DNA from: a virus
IMG/VR virus record: IMGVR_UViG_3300042731_001056
Coordinates: 1-26,952 of that record
Reading direction: 5' to 3' (one strand)
Length of the DNA stretch: 26,952 nucleotides
The translations under genes were made by a program, and so were the position numbers. The notes under the pieces are model-generated. The model saw nothing but the letters and a program-made list of their open reading frames with translations, did not search any database and was not told where the DNA came from. Below, in pieces: positions 1-24,923 of the stretch (position 1 is its first letter; every line of letters starts with the position of its first letter).

Positions 1-3000
1 GATTCGATTAATTTTACAGCGATCTCAAGTGTTCAGTTTGCCAATAGTCAAGGTGCGGAAACAATAACAGTCAACGTGACTCGGATGAAGCCAAACACTC
101 AGCTTTATGTATACTATGACGGTCAAGGTGTAAGTAGCAATGTACCTGGAAGACTTGGTTCTTACATTAAGACAGGTACGAGTAGTGGGTCATCCAATCA
201 CCCACTAAGAACAGATAGTTCTGGGGAATTGCAATGCTATTTCCATATACCAGCGAATCAATTCCCTGTTGGTATGACAGAACTTAAGTTCACAGACGAT
301 GAACTCAATAGAGATACTTTTGCAAGTACTACTGCATCTGTAATTATACCTTCCAGCACATTGAATACAACCTCAGTTGATGTTTCTTTGACTGAGACCA
401 CTGCGAATGTAACAACACAGGACGCAACAGGTAACCGCGAGGTGGTTCTTAGAGAGGAGTCTGGCACGGATGTAGAAACCCGTGTGCGTTTCTATGATCC
501 AATTGCACAGGGATTTACTATTTCTACTCCAAAAATTCCAGAAGATCAGTCGCAAGATACTGTGGCTCCGCACAAATATAGACACGGGGCATATGTAACG
601 GGTTTTGATTTTTGGTTTAAGGACAGAACAAATAACACTAACACAGAAACGGGTGATTACGATGGCGTCATAGTTCAGCTTAGAAACATGGTAAATGGAT
701 ATCCAGGTCCCGTTGTCATGGCAGAAAAGAGAATTCCCAGAAGTGATGTGAACACAACTCCCCCATCTGGTAGTACGTTTACTTTTTCTGGCAACGAAAC
801 GAATGTCACTTTCGATAAACCAGTTTATCTAATTCCTAACACAGAATATTGTGTTGTTCTTATGCCAGAAAATAATAACCCAGATTACAATGCTTGGGTT
901 GCTGAACTTGGTCAGGATAATTTAACAGAGATTTCTACTGAGACCAATCGGGGAGATCGTATTACAAAGGTAGAATCTTCTGGAACGTTCTTTGTTTCAT
1001 CAAACAATACTACTTGGAACGCAGTCCAAAAAGAAGATTTGATGATGAACATAAACATAGCAGAATTTGCTACGGCAGATGAAACAGCTACTTTCCACGC
1101 GAGAGAGCTTGATTTTGTTAACTTTAGGAATGGTACTTCCATAGTATCTGCCGCTCAAGAAGTTGACGGAATTAACATTGAAATAACAGATGTTGGTTCT
1201 GGTTATACCACCGCGCCAACATTAACTTTTAGTGCACCAACTGGTGCTAATGGTGTCACTGCAACCGCCGTTGCTACTATTAACTCAAGCGGTGCGGTAG
1301 ACAGTATCCGCGTAACGGAACCTGGCGTTGGTTACACGGCGGCACCTACATTAACGATTACGGGTACAAATACAACACCCTTGACTGCAAACGTATATTT
1401 GTTGAAATCTACTGTAGACAGAGTTGATATTCAAAACAGAAACCATGTGTTGGATCGTTCTGTTCAAACACACGCAACTGGTGTGAATTCAAATAGAACT
1501 GCATTTACTGTTGCACCGAAATCTACAATTCTTGCCGCAACGATTACTTCTGGTGAGACCGATGCAACAAGACCGTCTGGAACATATTCGAATGTTTCGC
1601 CCACTGGTGGCACAACTGCTGGAACGCCAGACATCGAAGCAACCATGACAATTGTCGTTGGAACTGGCGGTCTCAATACGGGTCAAGCAAGCATTACTCT
1701 TTCAAATCTTGGACTAGGGTACGCTGTTGGTGACACACTAGAATTTGATAGTACGGTTTTGGGCGGCAGTACTCCTCTGGTGGTTACGATTACTAGACTT
1801 CAAAACTCCGCGATTACATCACTACAAGATGATGGTAACGGAAATGATGTCGTTGTTGGAAGAACTAGTGGTTTTGTGAGAACTGAAGATACTCAAGTAT
1901 GGATTGACACAATTCGTGATAGAACTGTCACTGCTTCTCAAGTAAAATATAACCACACGATACAAGAGGGTGCCACGTCACTTGATTTGCAACTCGCTTG
2001 GACGCCATATAATGCAAACTATCAGTCTTCAACAAACAATGCTGTTGGTACAACTTATATTGATCAAGAACAGGGTGATACTACTGAATACAAAGCACAA
2101 TACAATGTAGCATCAAGATCCAATGAGTTGATGTATTTCCAAGGTAATAGAACTTTCACTGGTAAGATTATATTTAAGCATGATGATACTTACTACAGTA
2201 GAGTTTCCCCAAGAGTAGACTTTGAGCTATTTGAGGCGGTAATTGTTCAAAATATGCTCAACAATGATGCTACGGGCGAAGATAGCACAGATGGCGGTAA
2301 CGCAGACTCTAGATGGCTTTCGCAGGTTGTTGCTCTTGCGGAAGGTATGGACGCAGAAGACTTGAAAGTATATCTCACAATGTCTAAGTGGACATCAAAC
2401 ACTGTGAAGGTTTACGCAAAGATGAAGTCTGACGATGATGATTTGGGAACTCTTCAGAGGGATATTCGTTGGACTGAATTGGTCATTGATGAAGCGCCTT
2501 TGCAAGAAGATACTGGCTTTGCTGAGTATGTTTACACTCTTCCAAACTATGGTATTCGTGCCACGGAAATGGTAGCGGGAACTGAATATAAAATTATTAG
2601 TGCAGACTCTTCAGCGGGTAATGATCCCGCGTATTCTTTTGTCACTGCGGGTGCCGCAGACAATAACGCGGATACCGTTTTCACTGCCACTCAATCTATT
2701 CAAGGTGTTGGCACCGTTGTTGAAACTGGCATTTACGCTAGGGGTATTGATATTACTGATAATGGAGACTATGAAGGCGTATTTAAATATGACATTGGAC
2801 GTGTCTACAGCATTCCTGTAGCGGCGGCTGGAAGTGGTTATCTAAATGCTCCCGTAGTAACAATTACTGGTGGCGGCGGCAGACAAGCTAGAGCAGTTGC
2901 AGTGCTTAACGGCTCTGGTGGCGTAGATAGAATTGATGTTATCGATGGCGGTAGAGACTATACTTCTGCACCAACAGTAACACTTTCTGGTGGGGGCGGC

Positions 3001-3147
3001 GTTGGTGCTACTGCTGGCACGGCGACTCTGGCAACCGTACAGTTTAAGTCATTCAAGCAATTCCAGATCAAAGTTGTGTTGCTTGGAGAGAACACTTACG
3101 ATTATCCTGTTATTCAAGACTTGCGAGCAATCGCATTGCAGGTGTAG
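1..3147 (+). CDS. Large virion structural protein, 5' end outside the window
   Basis: The reading frame is open from base 1 to the TAG at 3145-3147, so the true start lies upstream; the GTG at 76 is only an internal codon. About 1048 residues are visible. Near nt 496-1060 there is a domain starting with a DPIAQGF motif, followed by a GYPGP motif and an NTEYCVVLM strand. This arrangement is seen in large tail- or baseplate-associated proteins of T4-like phages. Two pairs of a Gly-rich beta repeat (GSGYTTAP...TLTF type) occur at about 1189-1371 and 2821-3024. The rest is Thr/Asn/Gly-rich and beta-like, with no enzyme motif. It heads a run of closely packed structural genes (next start 2 bases after the stop). 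A peripheral tail or baseplate component is the best inference; the exact T4 counterpart is not clear. Confidence 0.8.
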   Translation, partial: DSINFTAISSVQFANSQGAETITVNVTRMKPNTQLYVYYDGQGVSSNVPGRLGSYIKTGTSSGSSNHPLRTDSSGELQCYFHIPANQFPVGMTELKFTDDELNRDTFASTTASVIIPSSTLNTTSVDVSLTETTANVTTQDATGNREVVLREESGTDVETRVRFYDPIAQGFTISTPKIPEDQSQDTVAPHKYRHGAYVTGFDFWFKDRTNNTNTETGDYDGVIVQLRNMVNGYPGPVVMAEKRIPRSDVNTTPPSGSTFTFSGNETNVTFDKPVYLIPNTEYCVVLMPENNNPDYNAWVAELGQDNLTEISTETNRGDRITKVESSGTFFVSSNNTTWNAVQKEDLMMNINIAEFATADETATFHARELDFVNFRNGTSIVSAAQEVDGINIEITDVGSGYTTAPTLTFSAPTGANGVTATAVATINSSGAVDSIRVTEPGVGYTAAPTLTITGTNTTPLTANVYLLKSTVDRVDIQNRNHVLDRSVQTHATGVNSNRTAFTVAPKSTILAATITSGETDATRPSGTYSNVSPTGGTTAGTPDIEATMTIVVGTGGLNTGQASITLSNLGLGYAVGDTLEFDSTVLGGSTPLVVTITRLQNSAITSLQDDGNGNDVVVGRTSGFVRTEDTQVWIDTIRDRTVTASQVKYNHTIQEGATSLDLQLAWTPYNANYQSSTNNAVGTTYIDQEQGDTTEYKAQYNVASRSNELMYFQGNRTFTGKIIFKHDDTYYSRVSPRVDFELFEAVIVQNMLNNDATGEDSTDGGNADSRWLSQVVALAEGMDAEDLKVYLTMSKWTSNTVKVYAKMKSDDDDLGTLQRDIRWTELVIDEAPLQEDTGFAEYVYTLPNYGIRATEMVAGTEYKIISADSSAGNDPAYSFVTAGAADNNADTVFTATQSIQGVGTVVETGIYARGIDITDNGDYEGVFKYDIGRVYSIPVAAAGSGYLNAPVVTITGGGGRQARAVAVLNGSGGVDRIDVIDGGRDYTSAPTVTLSGGGGVGATAGTATLATVQFKSFKQFQIKVVLLGENTYDYPVIQDLRAIALQV
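1189..1371 (+). repeat. Two GSGYTTAP-type beta repeats in the large virion protein
   Basis: Two copies of a roughly 35-40 residue unit, each with the form (V/P)GSGYTTAPTLT followed by a Gly/Ala-rich turn and a hydrophobic strand. The second copy reads PGVGYTAAPTLTITG. The same unit recurs at 2821-3024 and inside the tail sheath gene at 23442-23687. Confidence 0.75.
2821..3024 (+). repeat. Second pair of GSGY-type beta repeats near the C-terminus
   Basis: The units read AAGSGYLNAPVVTITGGGG and GGRDYTSAPTVTLSGGGG, separated by a VDRIDVID-like strand. They are clearly related to the pair at 1189-1371 but carry a longer glycine run after the last strand. Confidence 0.75.
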
Positions 3148-3149
3148 TT

Positions 3150-3347
3150 GTGAAGACTGATAAATACAAAAGATGCAATTCTAGTGGTGCTTTAGTTAGC
3201 ACAGATTTGGATGGTCTCAGAAGATATAAAGAGGCTAAATTGCAATCCAAAAAAGTTGGTGAGTATGGTAAGGAAATAAATAATTTAAAAACGGAAATGG
3301 AAGACATTAAAGGTGTCCTCAAAGAAATTTTAAATAGGCTGAGTTGA
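3150..3347 (+). CDS. Small coiled-coil protein, function unknown
   Basis: A 65-residue protein starting with GTG two bases after the preceding stop and ending in a TGA that overlaps the next ATG (TGATG). The N-terminal half is basic and polar, with a DLDGLRRYKEAK segment. The C-terminal half (about residues 40-65) has heptad-like hydrophobic spacing (INNLKTEMEDIKGVLKEIL) and should form a coiled coil. There is no signal peptide or membrane segment. Its place between a large tail-type protein and small structural proteins suggests an oligomeric virion or assembly factor, but no family was recognised. The tight packing on both sides and the coherent amphipathic helix support it being real. Confidence 0.65.
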   Translation: MKTDKYKRCNSSGALVSTDLDGLRRYKEAKLQSKKVGEYGKEINNLKTEMEDIKGVLKEILNRLS

Positions 3348-3868
3348 TGGCTACTATACTTTTAAGAAATACATTAGGAAGACCGCTTACTAATACAGAA
3401 GTGGATAATAACTTCATTAATCTGAATACCGATAAGTATGAAGATGGTGATGATATTACCGTTGGTTCTGCTGTTGTAGCGGATGATCTTTCTGTATCTG
3501 GACAAGTAGCATTTAGTACACAGGCCACGATCTCTGCTGGTGGAAATGATCAAACGTCAGCAACGGCCCTTACCGCATCTTTTAACATTATTACAAATGC
3601 AAATGCGAACGAAGGTGTAAAACTGCCAGACGTAAATGGTGGTAGATATGTGATCGTAATTAACGACACAACAACCGATATCACAGTGTATCCATATACT
3701 GGTGAATCTATTGTCACAAACGGAGTTACCTTACCAACAAACACTGGTGTGGAACTACGCGCTGGTAAAGCACTTACCTTGGTTGGTGCGTCTACAACAA
3801 AGTGGAATAGTTTCGCCACTGCTTCAGAGATTGCAATCTATGATTCAACAGGGACGAGGCTTAACTAA
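3347..3868 (+). CDS. Small virion structural protein, paralog of the next gene
   Basis: 173 residues from the ATG at 3347, which overlaps the upstream stop; a TTG one codon earlier is less likely. The N-terminus (MATILLRN, then LTNTEVDNNFINLN) is a signature shared by many fibre or neck-associated proteins of marine T4-like phages. The middle is beta-rich, with a VYPYTGE segment. The last residues, IAIYDSTGTRLN, match the end of the next protein (LAVYDSSGTRLN) and of the protein ending at 18316 (AIYNASGTLLN). It is clearly a duplicate of the gene at 3871: same N-terminal motif, same length class, same C-terminal tag. A virion role is inferred from position and family resemblance; the precise location in the particle is unknown. 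Confidence 0.75.
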   Translation: MATILLRNTLGRPLTNTEVDNNFINLNTDKYEDGDDITVGSAVVADDLSVSGQVAFSTQATISAGGNDQTSATALTASFNIITNANANEGVKLPDVNGGRYVIVINDTTTDITVYPYTGESIVTNGVTLPTNTGVELRAGKALTLVGASTTKWNSFATASEIAIYDSTGTRLN

Positions 3869-3870
3869 GT

Positions 3871-4377
3871 ATGGCTACTATAATCACAAGAAATACTGGC
3901 GGCACTGCTAAGAATAGCCCACTGACCACCACAGAACTAGATAATAATTTTATAAATCTCAACGATGATAAATATGAGGCTGGTGATGATATTGTTGTTG
4001 CAGATTTTACAGCAACAGGAGATATCACTGTCGGTATTACAACAGGAGTAGCCGCCGCAGGTAGTACACAAGGAACCGCCACTTCTCTTACAACCACTGT
4101 AAATGTTGTAACATCGGCTTCTGCAAATGTTACGGACGGAGTTATCCTTCCAGCGGCAGTTGCGGGTTTATATATAACTGTGAAAAATGATACAGCAGAT
4201 AACATTAAAGTGTATCCACCAAGTAGTGGAATTATTGACAACGAATCTACAAATGGTGCTGTAACAGTACCCGCTGAAGGGTCAAGGTCTTTTGTAGGTG
4301 TTTCGACAAGTAAATATAATACAGTTGCGAGTACTGAACTCGCGGTATACGACTCTTCTGGAACGAGGTTAAACTAA
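3871..4377 (+). CDS. Small virion structural protein, second paralog
   Basis: 168 residues from the ATG at 3871, two bases after the previous stop. It shares with its neighbour the LTTTELDNNFINLNDDKYEAGDD start, a KVYPPSSG segment aligned with VYPYTGE, and the C-terminal tag LAVYDSSGTRLN. Central residues are mostly Val/Ala/Thr in beta-like alternation, with no catalytic motifs. The last base of its TAA is the first base of the next ATG (TAATG), so translation of the two is probably coupled. Like its paralog, it is best read as a short structural protein of the tail, collar or fibre region. Confidence 0.75.
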   Translation: MATIITRNTGGTAKNSPLTTTELDNNFINLNDDKYEAGDDIVVADFTATGDITVGITTGVAAAGSTQGTATSLTTTVNVVTSASANVTDGVILPAAVAGLYITVKNDTADNIKVYPPSSGIIDNESTNGAVTVPAEGSRSFVGVSTSKYNTVASTELAVYDSSGTRLN

Positions 4378-5735
4378 TGCGACCATTGCGACTAAAATCT
4401 AGCGCATACCCTGTAGACACAACAAATATGCAGGGATTGCAAGAGATGACTGATTCTGATATTGAACAGTATCTTTCTGCTGTATTGACTGCAAAATTCG
4501 CCGCCGATTATTCGGGAACTCTTACAGGTGATTTAAATGTTTCTACCAATAATGCACAGGCTGGTGCTGATGTTGGTACTTTTACGGATAGCATTCGCAC
4601 AGAATCAATTGGTACTCACCCAGCAACGGGTGCGACTAGTAGTACAACATATTATGTAAAGCAGGCAAATGCCGCAGTAACCGAAAATATTACAAACAGG
4701 CTTGTTGGTTATGATGACACAACCAATGTTGGTATCAACGAGTTTACTGATAACCAATTGGACACAGACGTTCTAGACAAAGTTCTAGATGACATGATAA
4801 ATAGTGCCTACGCTTGTGGCCTTTATTCATTAAACGCAAGCTCTCCTTCTGGTGGTACTTGGACATCAAGAATTACTCTTACAAACACTACGCTCTCTGG
4901 AAACAATAGTGCGTATATCTGGCAAAAGACTTCTCCAAATAGTGGCGCAAACAGCAACCTTAGACCACTGAAGGTTCACAACACTTCAGACATTAAAGAA
5001 ATGTCTGATGCTGAGATTGAGCAAATGTTGCCAAATCTGCGAAATCGCATGATTGATACGGGTGTCGGAACTTATAAGTTGCAAACAAGCTCGCCTTCCA
5101 CTGGAACATGGGTTCAAATGGGAGACGCTGGTGGTCACTCTGACACTCGCCAACAAGTCTCTGGTCAAGCGTATTCTGGTAACTATCAACAAACATATTC
5201 TGGCACTTATGCTAGTTCTTTCACTGGCTCTTATGCTGGTACATACGCTAGAAACTGGGCTGGTGCATACGCTGGATCATACGCACAACCAGTTAACTAC
5301 AGCGGTGCTTATAGCCGAGGATTCACTGGATCTTACTCTGGTGGATATGCGGGTACAGTAAACTTTGCTGGTAACTACAGCGGATCATATACTGGAACAT
5401 ACATTCTTTACTATGCGGGTGTCGTATACGGTTACTACGCAGGTACTTATTCTGGTACGTATACGGGATACTATGCTGGCACTGTTTATTATACTGGCGC
5501 TTATGCTGGCACCTATACGGGAACGTTTGGTGGTGTGTATACGGGACAGCTATATTACACTGGCTCTTATACTGGCTACTACACGGGATACTATACAGGA
5601 ATCTATGCTGGTACTTATACATCATATTATACGGGCGCGTATACTGCTACATATACAGGCGCGTACACTGGTGCAACAGTATTAGGATCTGTTGAGACTG
5701 TAAATACCGTTAAGTTGTGGTTGCGTACTGCATAA
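4377..5735 (+). CDS. Fibre-like protein with Tyr/Gly tetrapeptide repeat tail
   Basis: 452 residues. Residues 3-162 and about 195-247 are two copies of one module: RPL..., then EMTDSDIEQYL or EMSDAEIEQML, then a G-Y-x-L stretch, SSPS-(G/T)-GTW. Residues 265-433 are an unbroken repeat of the form Y-(T/S/A)-G-x, about four residues per unit, very rich in Tyr, Gly, Thr, Ser and Ala. A short non-repeat tail (VLGSVETVNTVKLWLRTA) closes the protein. Similar Tyr/Gly repeat proteins occur among virion proteins of marine T4-like phages. The design (folded head, fibrous repeat, small cap) suggests an extended fibre or surface appendage. It is the last gene of the upstream structural run, directly before the accessory sugar-modification genes. 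Confidence 0.8.
   Translation: MRPLRLKSSAYPVDTTNMQGLQEMTDSDIEQYLSAVLTAKFAADYSGTLTGDLNVSTNNAQAGADVGTFTDSIRTESIGTHPATGATSSTTYYVKQANAAVTENITNRLVGYDDTTNVGINEFTDNQLDTDVLDKVLDDMINSAYACGLYSLNASSPSGGTWTSRITLTNTTLSGNNSAYIWQKTSPNSGANSNLRPLKVHNTSDIKEMSDAEIEQMLPNLRNRMIDTGVGTYKLQTSSPSTGTWVQMGDAGGHSDTRQQVSGQAYSGNYQQTYSGTYASSFTGSYAGTYARNWAGAYAGSYAQPVNYSGAYSRGFTGSYSGGYAGTVNFAGNYSGSYTGTYILYYAGVVYGYYAGTYSGTYTGYYAGTVYYTGAYAGTYTGTFGGVYTGQLYYTGSYTGYYTGYYTGIYAGTYTSYYTGAYTATYTGAYTGATVLGSVETVNTVKLWLRTA
5169..5675 (+). repeat. In-frame 12-bp-period repeat coding Y-x-G-x units
   Basis: About 500 bases of imperfect 12-base units of the type TAT-ACT-GGC-ACT. Codons vary (TAT/TAC, GGT/GGC/GGA/GGG) while the peptide pattern is kept, so selection is on the protein. 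The repeat also leaves other frames open, which creates long spurious ORFs on both strands. Confidence 0.9.
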
Positions 5736-15508: not shown

Positions 15509-15811
15509 ATGTCAAACGTAATTAAATTAAAACGTTCTTCAACTATTAATTCTGCACCAACTACAAGTGATCTTGAAATTGGCGAAGTAGCGGTCAATAG
15601 CGCTGATAAAAAGATCTACATGCGTGATGGTGAAAACTCTATCACAACAATTGCAAATTTTGCAAATGTAGATGCATTTCCTTATGGTGATTATGGTACT
15701 GTCAGCGATTCAATAGTAATCGATGCTTTCGGACAACAAGAATCCGATGGTTGGGACATGCTAGACACGCCTCAAAACGCACTAACCACACACGATTTGG
15801 GCGGTCTGTAA
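15509..15811 (+). CDS. Small fibre-type protein, array copy 1
   Basis: 100 residues from the ATG at 15509. The N-terminal 50 residues (VIKLKRSSTINSAPTTSDLEIGEVAVN, then KKIYMRDGENSITTIANF) are the attachment-type beta module also seen in the three following genes and, in looser form, in the protein at 13490. The C-terminal half, FPYGDYGTVSDSIVIDAFG through DTPQNALTTHDLGGL, aligns along its whole length with the next protein. These two are therefore full-length paralogs. Resembles the N-terminal module of major-tropism-determinant-like fibres, but is too short to hold a receptor-binding domain. Confidence 0.75.
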   Translation: MSNVIKLKRSSTINSAPTTSDLEIGEVAVNSADKKIYMRDGENSITTIANFANVDAFPYGDYGTVSDSIVIDAFGQQESDGWDMLDTPQNALTTHDLGGL

Positions 15812-15822
15812 GGAGAATTTAA

Positions 15823-16134
15823 GTGGCTCAAGTAATTAAACCAAAAAGAAGCGAAACAAGCGCCTCAGAACCTGGATTAAGTGATCTGGCTGTTGGCGAA
15901 ATTGCGATGAACTTGGTTGATAAAAAAGTATTTACTAGAGATTCTAGTAATAACATTATTACTGTTGCTAACTTTTCTGTTGGAGATCCAAATTTAGTTT
16001 TTCCAACGGGTGACTATGGTGATTTGACTAATCCAGATGAAGATCCTTTTGGGGTTGTTATTACAGCATACTTTGACTGTAAGACTACTCCTACAGGCAT
16101 TCTTCAAAATAAAGATTTAGGCTCGCTATCATAG
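15823..16134 (+). CDS. Small fibre-type protein, array copy 2
   Basis: 103 residues from a GTG at 15823, with AAGGAG (15810-15815) upstream. It shares with its upstream neighbour the pattern VIKPKRSETSASEPGLSDL, GEIAMN, KKVFTRDSSNNIITVANF, then FPTGDYGDL, a TTPTGIL segment and the ending NKDLGSLS (compare THDLGGL). The divergence is large at residue level but the order of motifs is the same, so this is an old tandem duplication rather than a recent copy. A short virion protein, probably in the collar or fibre assembly. Confidence 0.75.
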   Translation: MAQVIKPKRSETSASEPGLSDLAVGEIAMNLVDKKVFTRDSSNNIITVANFSVGDPNLVFPTGDYGDLTNPDEDPFGVVITAYFDCKTTPTGILQNKDLGSLS

Positions 16135-16144
16135 GTAAAAAAAT

Positions 16145-16369
16145 ATGTCTACACAAGTTCAGTTCAAAAGAGGAACCACCACGGACCATAGCTCTTTTAC
16201 TGGTGCGAATGGTGAACTGACCATAAATACAACAAAGAAAGCTCTTGTGATACATGATGGAAGTACTCAAGGAGGTATTGAACATCTAAGAGCAGATTTA
16301 AACAATTTAAGTAGTTCAGCGATCATTCCAGGCTCACAAGTTGATGCTATCGACTGCGGAACGTACTAA
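16145..16369 (+). CDS. Small fibre-type protein, array copy 3
   Basis: 74 residues from the ATG at 16145. The first 45 residues (TQVQFKRGTTTDHSSFTGANGELTI, then VIHDGSTQGG) are the attachment-type beta module, nearly the same as the start of the next protein. A short tail then ends in AIDCGTY, matching the NIDGGTY and TIDGGSY ends of two earlier proteins but with Cys in place of the first Gly. This is in effect a bare attachment module joined directly to a terminal tag. Weak ribosome-binding sequence; the start is fixed by homology with the next gene. Confidence 0.75.
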   Translation: MSTQVQFKRGTTTDHSSFTGANGELTINTTKKALVIHDGSTQGGIEHLRADLNNLSSSAIIPGSQVDAIDCGTY

Positions 16370-18330: not shown

Positions 18331-19293
18331 ATGGCGTTATCTACAAGAGAGCAACTACAAGATTACTGTCTGCGTAGATTAGGCTGGCCTGTTGTTGAAA
18401 TTAATGTTGATGAAGATCAAGTAACAGACCGCATAGATGACGCACTACAGTTTTTTCAAGAGTATCACTTTGATGGTGTTGAGCGTACATATGTAAAACA
18501 CCAACTCACGGGGTCAACGGTCAGACTAAATCTGTCCGTTGCCTCTAGTTTTACTGTTGGAGAAACAATCACTGGCGCAACGTCTGGTGCAAAAGCTATT
18601 GTCAAGGGTCTTTCTGGCAATCAGATTTCAGTTGAAGAATCTACTGCCGATTGGGTTGGTGGAGAGTCTATAACTGGGTCTGAGTCTGGTTACACAGCGG
18701 CAGTATCCCTTACCACGCCATATGAAAAAGGCGACATTGAGAACGGTTACATTCCTATTGGTAACGGCATCCTTGGAATCAATCGCGTTTTTAACTTTGG
18801 TGGAACTAACAGCTTAGACACCGAAGACATCTTCAACATCGATTATCAATTTCGACTGAACGATCTCTATAATCTGCTTGGCGCGGATATGATTTACTAT
18901 TCCATGGTAAAACAAAACCTTCAGTCGCTAGAACAGTTGTTGATGAGTTCTAGACAAATTCGTTGGAATCGAAAGACAAATCGCTTGTACATTGACACAG
19001 ATTGGGACAAAACTTTCAACATTGGTGATTATATTGTCGCGGAAGCATTTGCTATTGTTGACCCAGAAACATATACCGAAGTTTACGATGATATGTTTTT
19101 GAAGAAGTATGCCACTGCATTAATAAAAAGGCAGTGGGGAGAAAATATGAAGAAGTTTGGTGGCATTCAATTACCTGGAGGCGTAACGTTAAACGGCAAA
19201 GAAGTGTATGATGAGGCAATTGAAGAAATTCGTATGATTGAACAAGAGATGCAATCTAAATACGAACTGCCGCCATCATTCATGGTGGGGTAA
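18331..19293 (+). CDS. gp13: Neck protein gp13 with inserted repeat domain
   Basis: 320 residues, close to the T4 gp13 length of about 309. The opening (STREQLQDYCLRRLGWP, then VTDRIDDALQFFQEYHFDGVE) is the hallmark of T4-like head-completion gp13. Residues 73-127 are an extra Gly/Thr-rich pair of units (FTVGETITGATSGAKAIV and WVGGESITGSESGYTAAV) in the segment that normally links two strands. The rest (YNLLGADMIYYSMVK, RQIRWNRKTNRLYID, and a C-terminal EIRMIEQEMQSKYELPPSFMVG) is typical. gp13 joins the filled head to the tail neck with gp14. It begins the T4-order block 13-14-15-16-17-18-19-20. Confidence 0.9.
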   Translation: MALSTREQLQDYCLRRLGWPVVEINVDEDQVTDRIDDALQFFQEYHFDGVERTYVKHQLTGSTVRLNLSVASSFTVGETITGATSGAKAIVKGLSGNQISVEESTADWVGGESITGSESGYTAAVSLTTPYEKGDIENGYIPIGNGILGINRVFNFGGTNSLDTEDIFNIDYQFRLNDLYNLLGADMIYYSMVKQNLQSLEQLLMSSRQIRWNRKTNRLYIDTDWDKTFNIGDYIVAEAFAIVDPETYTEVYDDMFLKKYATALIKRQWGENMKKFGGIQLPGGVTLNGKEVYDEAIEEIRMIEQEMQSKYELPPSFMVG

Positions 19294-23003: not shown

Positions 23004-24923
23004 ATGGCTTTTCAGCTTTCACCTGGAGTTCTGATTAAAGAAGTTGATTTGACTTCTGTCGTACCCGCAGTAGGTACCTCTATTGGTGCTTTCGCTGGCG
23101 ACTTCCAATGGGGTCCAGCCGAAGAAGTTCGAACCCTGCAATCAGAAAATCAATTAGTAGAAATTTTTGGCAAACCTAACAACACTGTAGCAGACGGATG
23201 GTTTACTGCCGCAAGCTTTTTGGCGTACAGTTCATCTCTGCGCGTTGCACGTGCTGTTGGTTCTGCCGCTCTTAACGCTGGCGTAGCTGGTGGTGTTCTG
23301 ATTAAAAATGATACCGACTACGAAAACAACCATTCCGCTGGATCAAACGGTGTGGGTATGTGGGCGGCAAAGTGGCCTGGTGCACTAGGAAACAGTCTTA
23401 AGGTAGACTTTTGTGACCACGCAACATTCGATGCTGGCTCAGTGCTTTCAATTGCAATTAGCAACTCTGGTTCTGGCTATAACGATGGTGACACTACTGT
23501 AACTATCGCGGCACCACCCGCTGGTGGAACGCAAGCAGAAGCAACCCCAACAATTGTTGCTGGTGCAATCACTGGTATCACTGTAACTAACCCAGGTTCT
23601 GGTTACGCAACTGCGCCTACTATCACTATCACTGATTCAAATGGTACCCCTGGTGCTGGTGCCGCCGCAACTGCTACTCTTTCAGTTGCATGGCAGTATG
23701 CCAATCAGTTTGATGGCTCTCCCACTACTTCAACATATGCATCAAATGTCGGTGCGTCTAATGACGAAATGCACGTAATCGTTATTGATGAAGATGGCTT
23801 GTTTACGGGAACGGCTGGTACTGTACTTGAGAAATTCCCGTTTGTATCCAAGGCCGCTAATGCTAAGGATGACGTTGGCGCTTCAAGTTATTACAAAAAT
23901 GTAATCAACACTCAGTCTGACTACATTTGGTGGACAGATCACCCTTCAACCGACATCACGTTTGGAGACGATGCAGTAAACGGTTTGGTTTATACCTCAA
24001 ACTTTGGAGCAACAGCGCTCTCTCTTTCTAGTGGTGCCGATGCCGCTCCGAATGATGGTGAGATTCAAACAGCATACGATCTGTTTAGCAACGACTATGA
24101 GATCGATGTTAACCTTATTATAACAGGCGCACACACTGCGGCTGTACAGTCATATGTTCAAGACAACATTGCTCTGGTGCGTAAAGATTGTGTGACTTTC
24201 CACTCTCCGCTCAAGGCGTCTGTTGTTAACAATTCTGGTTCAGAAGCTACAGATATTAAGGCTGATCGAGACAACTTGACTGCTACTAGCTACTCAGTAA
24301 TGGACACTGGTTGGAAGTACATGTATGACCGCTACAATGACGTATTCCGATGGGTACCCTGTAACGGTGACACCGCTGGTCTCTGTGTGAACACGGACCA
24401 AGTATCAGATGCATGGTTCTCTCCCGCTGGTTATAACCGTGGTTTGATCAAGAATGCCGCACGTCTTGCTTACAACCCAAGCAAGGCTGATCGCGACGAT
24501 CTCTACCAGTATGGTGTAAACCCAATTGTTGGTTTTGCTGGATCTGGTATCTTGTTGTTTGGTGACAAGACTCTTCAATCCAAGCCTGGTGCTTTTGATC
24601 GTATCAATGTACGCCGACTGTTTATCGTACTTGAGAAAGCAATTGCTACTGCCGCTAAGTTCCAGTTGTTTGAAATCAACGATGAATTTACTCGCGCACA
24701 ATTTACAAGCTTGGTTGAACCCTTCCTCCGTGACGTTCAAGGCCGCCGAGGTATCTTTGACTTTAAAGTAGTTTGTAACGAGAGCAATAACACAGAAGCA
24801 GTTATCGATGGTAATCGTTTCGTTGCTGACATCTTTGTTAAGCCCTATAAGTCAATCAACTTCATTACACTCAACTTCATTGCTACGAGAACTGGCGTGT
24901 CGTTTGAGGAAGTTGGCGGTTAA
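23004..24923 (+). CDS. gp18: Tail sheath protein gp18 with GSGY repeat insert
   Basis: 639 residues (T4 gp18 is about 659), with a strong AAGGAG site at 22991-22996. The N-terminus SPGVLIKEVDLTSVVPAVGTS and the C-terminal FVADIFVKPYKSINFITLNFIATRTGVSFEE are conserved in contractile sheaths. The core (NPIVGFAGSGILLFGDKTL, RLFIVLEKAI) is typical. Residues about 147-228 are an insert of two GSGY-type beta repeats (SNSGSGYNDGDTTVTI and NPGSGYATAPTITIT), the same type as in the large protein at the window start. The sheath contracts to drive the tube into the host; the insert would lie on the outward domain. It has its own late promoter. Confidence 0.96.
   Translation: MAFQLSPGVLIKEVDLTSVVPAVGTSIGAFAGDFQWGPAEEVRTLQSENQLVEIFGKPNNTVADGWFTAASFLAYSSSLRVARAVGSAALNAGVAGGVLIKNDTDYENNHSAGSNGVGMWAAKWPGALGNSLKVDFCDHATFDAGSVLSIAISNSGSGYNDGDTTVTIAAPPAGGTQAEATPTIVAGAITGITVTNPGSGYATAPTITITDSNGTPGAGAAATATLSVAWQYANQFDGSPTTSTYASNVGASNDEMHVIVIDEDGLFTGTAGTVLEKFPFVSKAANAKDDVGASSYYKNVINTQSDYIWWTDHPSTDITFGDDAVNGLVYTSNFGATALSLSSGADAAPNDGEIQTAYDLFSNDYEIDVNLIITGAHTAAVQSYVQDNIALVRKDCVTFHSPLKASVVNNSGSEATDIKADRDNLTATSYSVMDTGWKYMYDRYNDVFRWVPCNGDTAGLCVNTDQVSDAWFSPAGYNRGLIKNAARLAYNPSKADRDDLYQYGVNPIVGFAGSGILLFGDKTLQSKPGAFDRINVRRLFIVLEKAIATAAKFQLFEINDEFTRAQFTSLVEPFLRDVQGRRGIFDFKVVCNESNNTEAVIDGNRFVADIFVKPYKSINFITLNFIATRTGVSFEEVGG
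23442..23687 (+). repeat. GSGY-type beta repeat insert inside gp18
   Basis: Two roughly 40-residue units separated by IVAGAITGITV. They match the repeat pairs at 1189-1371 and 2821-3024 in motif order (GSGY, TAPT, strand, Gly/Ala turn). They lie between the KVDFCDHATFDA and WQYANQFDG segments of the sheath. Confidence 0.8.

Follow-up and report, generated by a model that had tools for sequence, protein, structure and literature searches.

Structure of the locus

The window (the whole stretch of DNA analysed here) is IMG/VR record IMGVR_UViG_3300042731_001056, positions 1-26,952 (26,952 bases), and it comes from an ocean-type virus of bacteria. Its genes run in the order VrlC-like baseplate protein, island, gp13, gp14, gp15, gp17, gp18, gp19 and gp20, which is the order of marine T4-like phages, several of the names being given by order alone. 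The gene of interest is gp18 (23004-24923, plus strand, as are all features below), which encodes a contractile tail sheath protein of 639 amino acids. It is a T4-type sheath, matching PHROG 23 at E 2.3e-126, and two Pfam families that cover domains III/IV score above their curated cut-offs: Phage_sheath_1 (PF04984, E 7.8e-12) and Phage_sheath_1C (PF17482, E 2.3e-15). The match to PF22671 lies below its cut-off. The order gp17-gp18-gp19-gp20 is present in the window and in loci L084-L086; window gp17 and gp19 are named by it, and gp20 is identified by Portal_T4 (E 2.1e-174). An Rfam search of the window gave no match, and a tandem repeat search gave one array only, an unrelated one.

Residues 145-228 of gp18 (23436-23687; profile envelope E 1e-25) form a pair of GSGY repeats, referred to here as the module, at a place called site B. 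The original prediction had drawn the pair at 23442-23687, or residues 147-228. Repeat 1 (residues 145-187, 23436-23564) has the hallmark NSGSGY and repeat 2 (residues 188-228, 23565-23687) the hallmark NPGSGY; the two are 43% identical over 44 columns (E 1.8e-6, blastp-short with filters off). An AF2 model of the insert alone (94 rows, pLDDT 93.3, pTM 0.82) has six strands in a 2 x 3 pattern, those of repeat 1 at 5-12, 22-26 and 37-43, and the same strands recur in the insert when the full protein is modelled (45 rows, pLDDT 82.3). As had been predicted, the repeats sit amid conserved sheath segments: PGALGNSLKV...FDAG before the insert (23376-23435; residues 121-140 are 100% identical to those of sheath L005) and WQYANQFDGSP after it (23691-23723; aligned across the surveyed sheaths). 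Two other sites that hold the module in related sheaths are empty in the window: site A, between residues 93 and 94 (23280-23285), which is the place of T4 domain I and carries GSGY in L106, L138 and others, and site C, between residues 314 and 315 (23943-23948), which carries it in Xanthomonas phage X1 and Variovorax phage V45v66. The gp18 of another isolate, Synechococcus phage S-CAM1, bears the module as well. Together the two GSGY repeats make up a self-contained beta domain of 80 residues, in a loop of the part equivalent to T4 domain II.

The module as an insert at three sites

The GSGY segment of gp18 is a true insert. A first scan with window gp18 relied on peptide patterns that lie outside the module. 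It retained 80 of 162 loci, and these yielded 62 distinct sheaths including the window, 61 of them classed at sites A-C. The original prediction had proposed an alignment with relatives lacking the insert, and these are plentiful: 35 of the 61 have no insert at any of the three sites, so the segment is not part of an ordinary sheath domain in all relatives. The remainder have GSGY at site B (7/61), another insert at B (9/61), another insert at A (5/61) or others at two or three sites (5/61). A clean empty site is seen in L334 (69% core identity), in which the flanks join directly (VSFADSATFS-TWTYAGNF).

Scans run with the L106, L138 and X1 sheaths as queries, together with other scans and isolates, brought the collection to 250 distinct sheaths of at least 480 amino acids. 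Whole-length hmmalign misplaces known inserts (e.g. that of Melnitz), and the site classes were taken from another procedure. It classed 237 sheaths and failed for 13; T4 and the majority of T4-type sheaths are among the failures, and the five T4-type rows inspected gave no match to the segment that links sites B and C. Among the 237, GSGY stands at A only in 93, at B only in 28, at C only in 2, at both A and B in 2, and at A with another insert at B in 1; 49 are empty at A-C and 62 have other inserts at one or more sites. The resulting GSGY totals (96 at A, 30 at B, 2 at C) are not natural frequencies, because several scan queries carried modules.

The sites can be placed on T4 gp18. Site A is the place of T4 domain I: the T4 segment before A ends at about residue 91 and the segment after it lies at 223-238. 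Site B corresponds to about T4 residues 245-250 by phmmer alignment (a MAFFT window-to-T4 residue map was left unused, since it placed T4 domain I against the wrong region). The available text of PMC3004832 gives domain II of T4 gp18 as residues 88-97 and 189-345, and sites A and B therefore fall within it. Site B also holds several unrelated beta-like inserts (L016/L018, L085, L348, L033, L082 and others), of types such as VGDIVxFxGxxTEYEVTAVSTNTLTI and AWIYSWDxxxxKLAIIN, and is therefore an insertion hot spot. At site A, the gp18 genes of contigs L363-L370 have inserts of several hundred residues unlike every other class. In L006, gp18 is in two frames (941-2452 and 2456-2866), split near residue 501-504, the split being due to a misassembly or to a genuine frameshift.

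Module copies in other virion genes

The first open reading frame of the window (1-3147) encodes the C-terminal part (1048 amino acids, the 5' end being outside the window) of a VrlC-like baseplate protein: its tblastn matches are genes annotated VrlC or adsorption-associated tail protein, and it matches PHROG 358 and 877. In marine T4-like phages, VrlC apparently replaces T4 gp7 in the baseplate, and an island, often with glycosyltransferases, lies between VrlC and gp14 (PMC7029224, in the part available). When the gp18 module region was searched against its own record, two other places were found, 2764-3039 (E 2.4e-8) and 1171-1383 (E 3.8e-8), both within this first reading frame. The profile delimits them as pair 1 (residues 384-472, 1150-1416) and pair 2 (residues 931-1015, 2791-3045), which are 44% and 41% identical to the gp18 pair, and the claim that related pairs occur twice in this protein is borne out. 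Both pairs align at the same places in the related VrlC-like protein L174.

The sharing of the module between gp18 and other genes is real and extends beyond the window. The family also occurs in proteins named tail fibre, baseplate wedge and hub lysozyme (PHROG and BFVD matches), and GSGY modules follow the conserved part of gp14 (head closure Hc2) in L153 (3131-4465); the profile found no GSGY module in the window's own gp14. A second sheath lineage, comprising Bradyrhizobium phage BDU-MI-1 (L096) and contig L120 and identified as sheath by Pfam and PHROG, bears the module as well (iE 6.6e-18 in BDU-MI-1). Modules were found in 246 of 5,041 ORFs of at least 80 amino acids from the fetched loci (155 matching the gp18 core profile and 91 other), which is no census, since the loci were picked for the module and partly overlap.

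Transfer from gene to gene, which the original prediction took this sharing to suggest, fares less well. In a tree of 148 modules there are 25 switches between sheath and other genes, against 40-59 with shuffled labels, and modules therefore cluster by gene; a single clade of all gp18 modules was not rejected (AU p 0.523). For these labels three modules without an assignable site were dropped, and labels by simple position, which confuse tandem copies with site B, were replaced.

Several other repeats were seen in and around these genes. The gp13-like neck protein (18331-19293) is, at 320 amino acids, longer than its HTVC008M counterpart (828 bp gene). It contains an additional beta repeat at residues ~64-130 (VGETITGATSGAKAIVKGLSG...) with a second copy, and this region has PHROG matches to tail fibre families. 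A 452-amino-acid protein at 4377-5735 ends in a long run of short Tyr-Thr-Gly/Tyr-Ala-Gly repeats (SGSYAGTYARNWAGAYAG...) and had no notable Pfam or PHROG match. A different repeat type occupies gp18 site B in L297 (FVSGQTYKIATVGTTDFTLIGSANNTVGTSFTATGTGTG), and by eye a divergent-looking copy of it lies at residues ~885-930 of the VrlC-like protein, directly before GSGY pair 2. Some island proteins are apparent paralogues: small neighbouring proteins at 3344-3868, 3871-4377 and 15509-16369 share N-termini (RNTxGxPLTxTExDNNFxNLN; QVQFxRGT).

Probable exchange between sheath lineages and sites

Within gp18, module and sheath core vary independently of one another. A tree was built from 169 cores with the insert regions excluded (quick IQ-TREE, LG+G4; several branches weakly supported); on it, site A and site B states each need a minimum of 15 changes, compared with shuffled means of 64 and 48, so site states are inherited yet often change. 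The clade that contains the window (29 members, SH-aLRT 96) needs at least six changes at site B and two at site A: at B its members have GSGY in 19 cases, nothing in 7 and another insert in 3, and at A three of them have GSGY. Modules are on average less alike than cores at core identities of 60% or more. Of 5,863 pairs compared, those with core identity of 60-70% have modules that average 44% identity at the same site and 49% at different sites, values that the strong low-complexity, glycine-rich consensus of the module may inflate.

Individual pairs of sheaths illustrate both directions. The window and L005 are 87% identical in the core and 52% in the module, and the identity of residues 121-140 continues up to the module edge, the far edge being less sharp; judged from these alignments, the difference could reflect either recombinational exchange or fast divergence. 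The reverse is seen with L106, which has its module at site A and an empty site B: the core is 59% and the module 64% identical to the window's (over profile columns; 57/84 by BLAST). Similarly, L007 (module at B) and X1 (module at C) share 49% of the core and 71% of the module. Such similarity of modules at different sites, as in L106 and X1, argues for exchange, although the glycine-rich consensus raises these identities too. Exchange between gp18 lineages and between gp18 sites is thus more strongly supported than transfer from gene to gene.

Resemblance to domain I of T4 gp18

The nearest solved structures to the modelled insert are T4-type sheath domains. In a VIA-align search the top three rows were domain I of gp18 from T4 or KP1, with matching ends: 3foa (T4 residues 99-192, Z 6.7, rmsd 3.2, 74 aligned, 24% identity), 3fo8 (T4 97-192, Z 6.1) and 9ev2 (KP1 96-191, Z 5.5). 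The next row, an unrelated filamin, had Z 3.1. The best Z falls below 8, under which the tool warns of a mere common arrangement, and Foldseek gave E 1.3 for the insert model against T4 gp18. In sequence there is a shared G-S-x-Y turn, with T4 G107 aligned to the first G of GSGY. A GSGY profile scored T4 domain I at 12.3 bits, third among 5,001 sequences (5,000 of them shuffles, two of which scored as high), and an earlier version of the profile hit T4 101-172 at iE 0.008 among sheaths.

Other sequence searches were not significant. With a T4 domain I profile, no GSGY module was significant among the 5,041 ORFs (best module-overlapping domain iE 0.044); outside T4-type loci it gave 52 domain rows, 20 of them overlapping a module. 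A comparison of module and T4 domain I by hhalign gave a probability of 3.7% (E 0.012). The Pfam family of this domain, PF22639 (Gp18_dom_I), had no match to window gp18 up to E 10 and matched 2 of 94 modules, at best with E 0.046 and below the curated score. Searching solved structures by sequence with the insert alone returned nothing useful, and the 94-row module profile returned tailspike Dpo31/Dpo36 (E 0.0093) and HPr proteins (0.17 or worse). The case for homology to T4 domain I therefore rests on fold, boundaries and place, and with the sequence support this weak, homology is likely but unproven.

Could the resemblance be convergent? The GSGY modules would then be a separate phage repeat family that by chance occupies the same loops with a common six-strand arrangement. 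The low profile and Foldseek scores and the VIA Z below 8 are what such a coincidence would produce, but it seems rather unlikely to us given that the boundaries match those of T4 domain I, the gap to unrelated folds is clear, the GS.Y turn of T4 aligns with the module, and GSGY occupies the position of T4 domain I in 96 of the 237 classed sheaths. The module is probably a relative of T4 gp18 domain I, though not a member of PF22639, and its resemblance to that domain at a different site suggests that phage tail knobs are swappable parts.

Possible roles of the module

The reading that best accommodates these observations is one to which we give about an even chance: the module would be a mobile relative of T4 domain I, transplanted to a second site (B) in the same gp18 layer, where it may be an outward-facing knob on which, perhaps, folded tail fibres dock. 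Each sheath subunit would project one module outward from the tail, and the module would be dispensable for the sheath's own contacts. The tail might thereby gain a repeated docking surface, chiefly for the fibres that the phage itself folds back or for parts of its baseplate, in the manner of T4, and module exchange would retune that docking. The surface exposure of the repeat, part of the original prediction, is made plausible indirectly, by inference from the position of sites A and B in the domain II part and from the best structural match, T4 domain I; in T4 this domain protrudes and takes no part in sheath-sheath contacts (PMC3004832, available part).

Docking of fibres or baseplate appears the likeliest role from two published descriptions. 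First, the same source describes T4 domain I as a site of fibre and baseplate docking, and lists mutations that block fibre retraction at G106, S175 and A178 (PMC3004832); these are G107, S176 and A179 in the numbering of NP_049780, which is one higher. S176 and A179 both fall in the stretch SSSSGLAAV; judged by eye, this stretch, which is outside the profile alignment, matches the glycine-rich loop of repeat 2. Second, in phage A-1(L), whose sheath has 24 hexamer rings, the fibre is folded back and its arm follows a groove on the sheath (PMC10966104, as far as available).

Alternatively, the module may serve as an adhesin for host surfaces: an Ig-like beta domain that binds weakly but is repeated along the sheath would keep the virion attached to glycans or particles, a role proposed for phage Ig-like domains. 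Adhesion or stabilisation has been proposed for extra sheath domains (PMC9230969, in its available part), and both the presence of the family in tail fibre, baseplate wedge, hub-lysozyme and other virion proteins and the average divergence of modules relative to cores would suit an adhesin. Among 94 modules, however, no Pfam match was significant and therefore none to a carbohydrate-binding family either; Ig and Fn3 families were likewise not significant (Fn3_arc in 2 members, best E 0.051), though such a fold may escape Pfam. Column entropies also show the hallmark loops to be the conserved part of the module, not a variable one, and we consider an adhesin unlikely. Equally improbable is a neutral or stabilising ornament. 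In that case domain II loops would simply accommodate beta inserts, and recombination between similar stretches would spread the glycine-rich repeats, which would have no selected binding function and could at most stiffen the tail. Several unrelated inserts also use site B and 49 of the 237 classed sheaths do without any at A-C, but the same few sites are reused and the hallmark residues are kept, which drifting filler would lose.

The docking-knob reading can be carried one step further, tentatively and at somewhat less than even likelihood. T4 gp18 domain I may itself be one captured copy of the mobile GSGY module, the outer knob being an exchangeable cassette that would move between at least three sheath sites, between sheath lineages, and among sheath, neck, baseplate and fibres, resetting what the tail surface holds or touches.

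Comparison with known systems

Descriptions of T4 gp18 domain I treat it as belonging to that sheath type. Were it one of a family of mobile modules, myovirus tails would have an outer face built from swappable parts, and the roles assigned to domain I (fibre folding, baseplate contact, host contact) would become testable across relatives filled at A, at B, at C or at none. It would also account for one repeat being shared by so many virion proteins in marine T4-like phages. Until the structure of a module-bearing tail is solved, the practical gain stays modest. A search of the open-access literature found no description of a GSGY sheath insert or of its link to domain I.

The closest known counterpart is T4 gp18 domain I (PF22639; 3foa, 3fo8), which like the module is a six-strand beta domain of 80-90 residues inserted in domain II. 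The two differ in that T4 domain I has an additional helix and stands at site A (residues 98-188 in the available text of PMC3004832), whereas the window module stands at B with A empty. Evseev et al. (2022; PMC9230969) described extra beta domains in varying number on a conserved sheath core, away from the tube, to which the module conforms; the available part of their paper does not include a recurrent module at several fixed sites, exchange between sites, or a link between repeat and domain I. Outside the sheath, virion proteins of T4-like phages (PHROG 5342, 701, 708, 2885, 460 and others) have the same module by profile and predicted fold, and in these fibre, baseplate, neck and unnamed virion proteins the GSGY repeats often form longer tandem arrays. 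The sheaths of BDU-MI-1 and L120 resemble window gp18 in having GSGY inside the sheath itself; unlike window gp18, the BDU-MI-1 sheath is shorter (478 amino acids) and stands outside the gp18 set.
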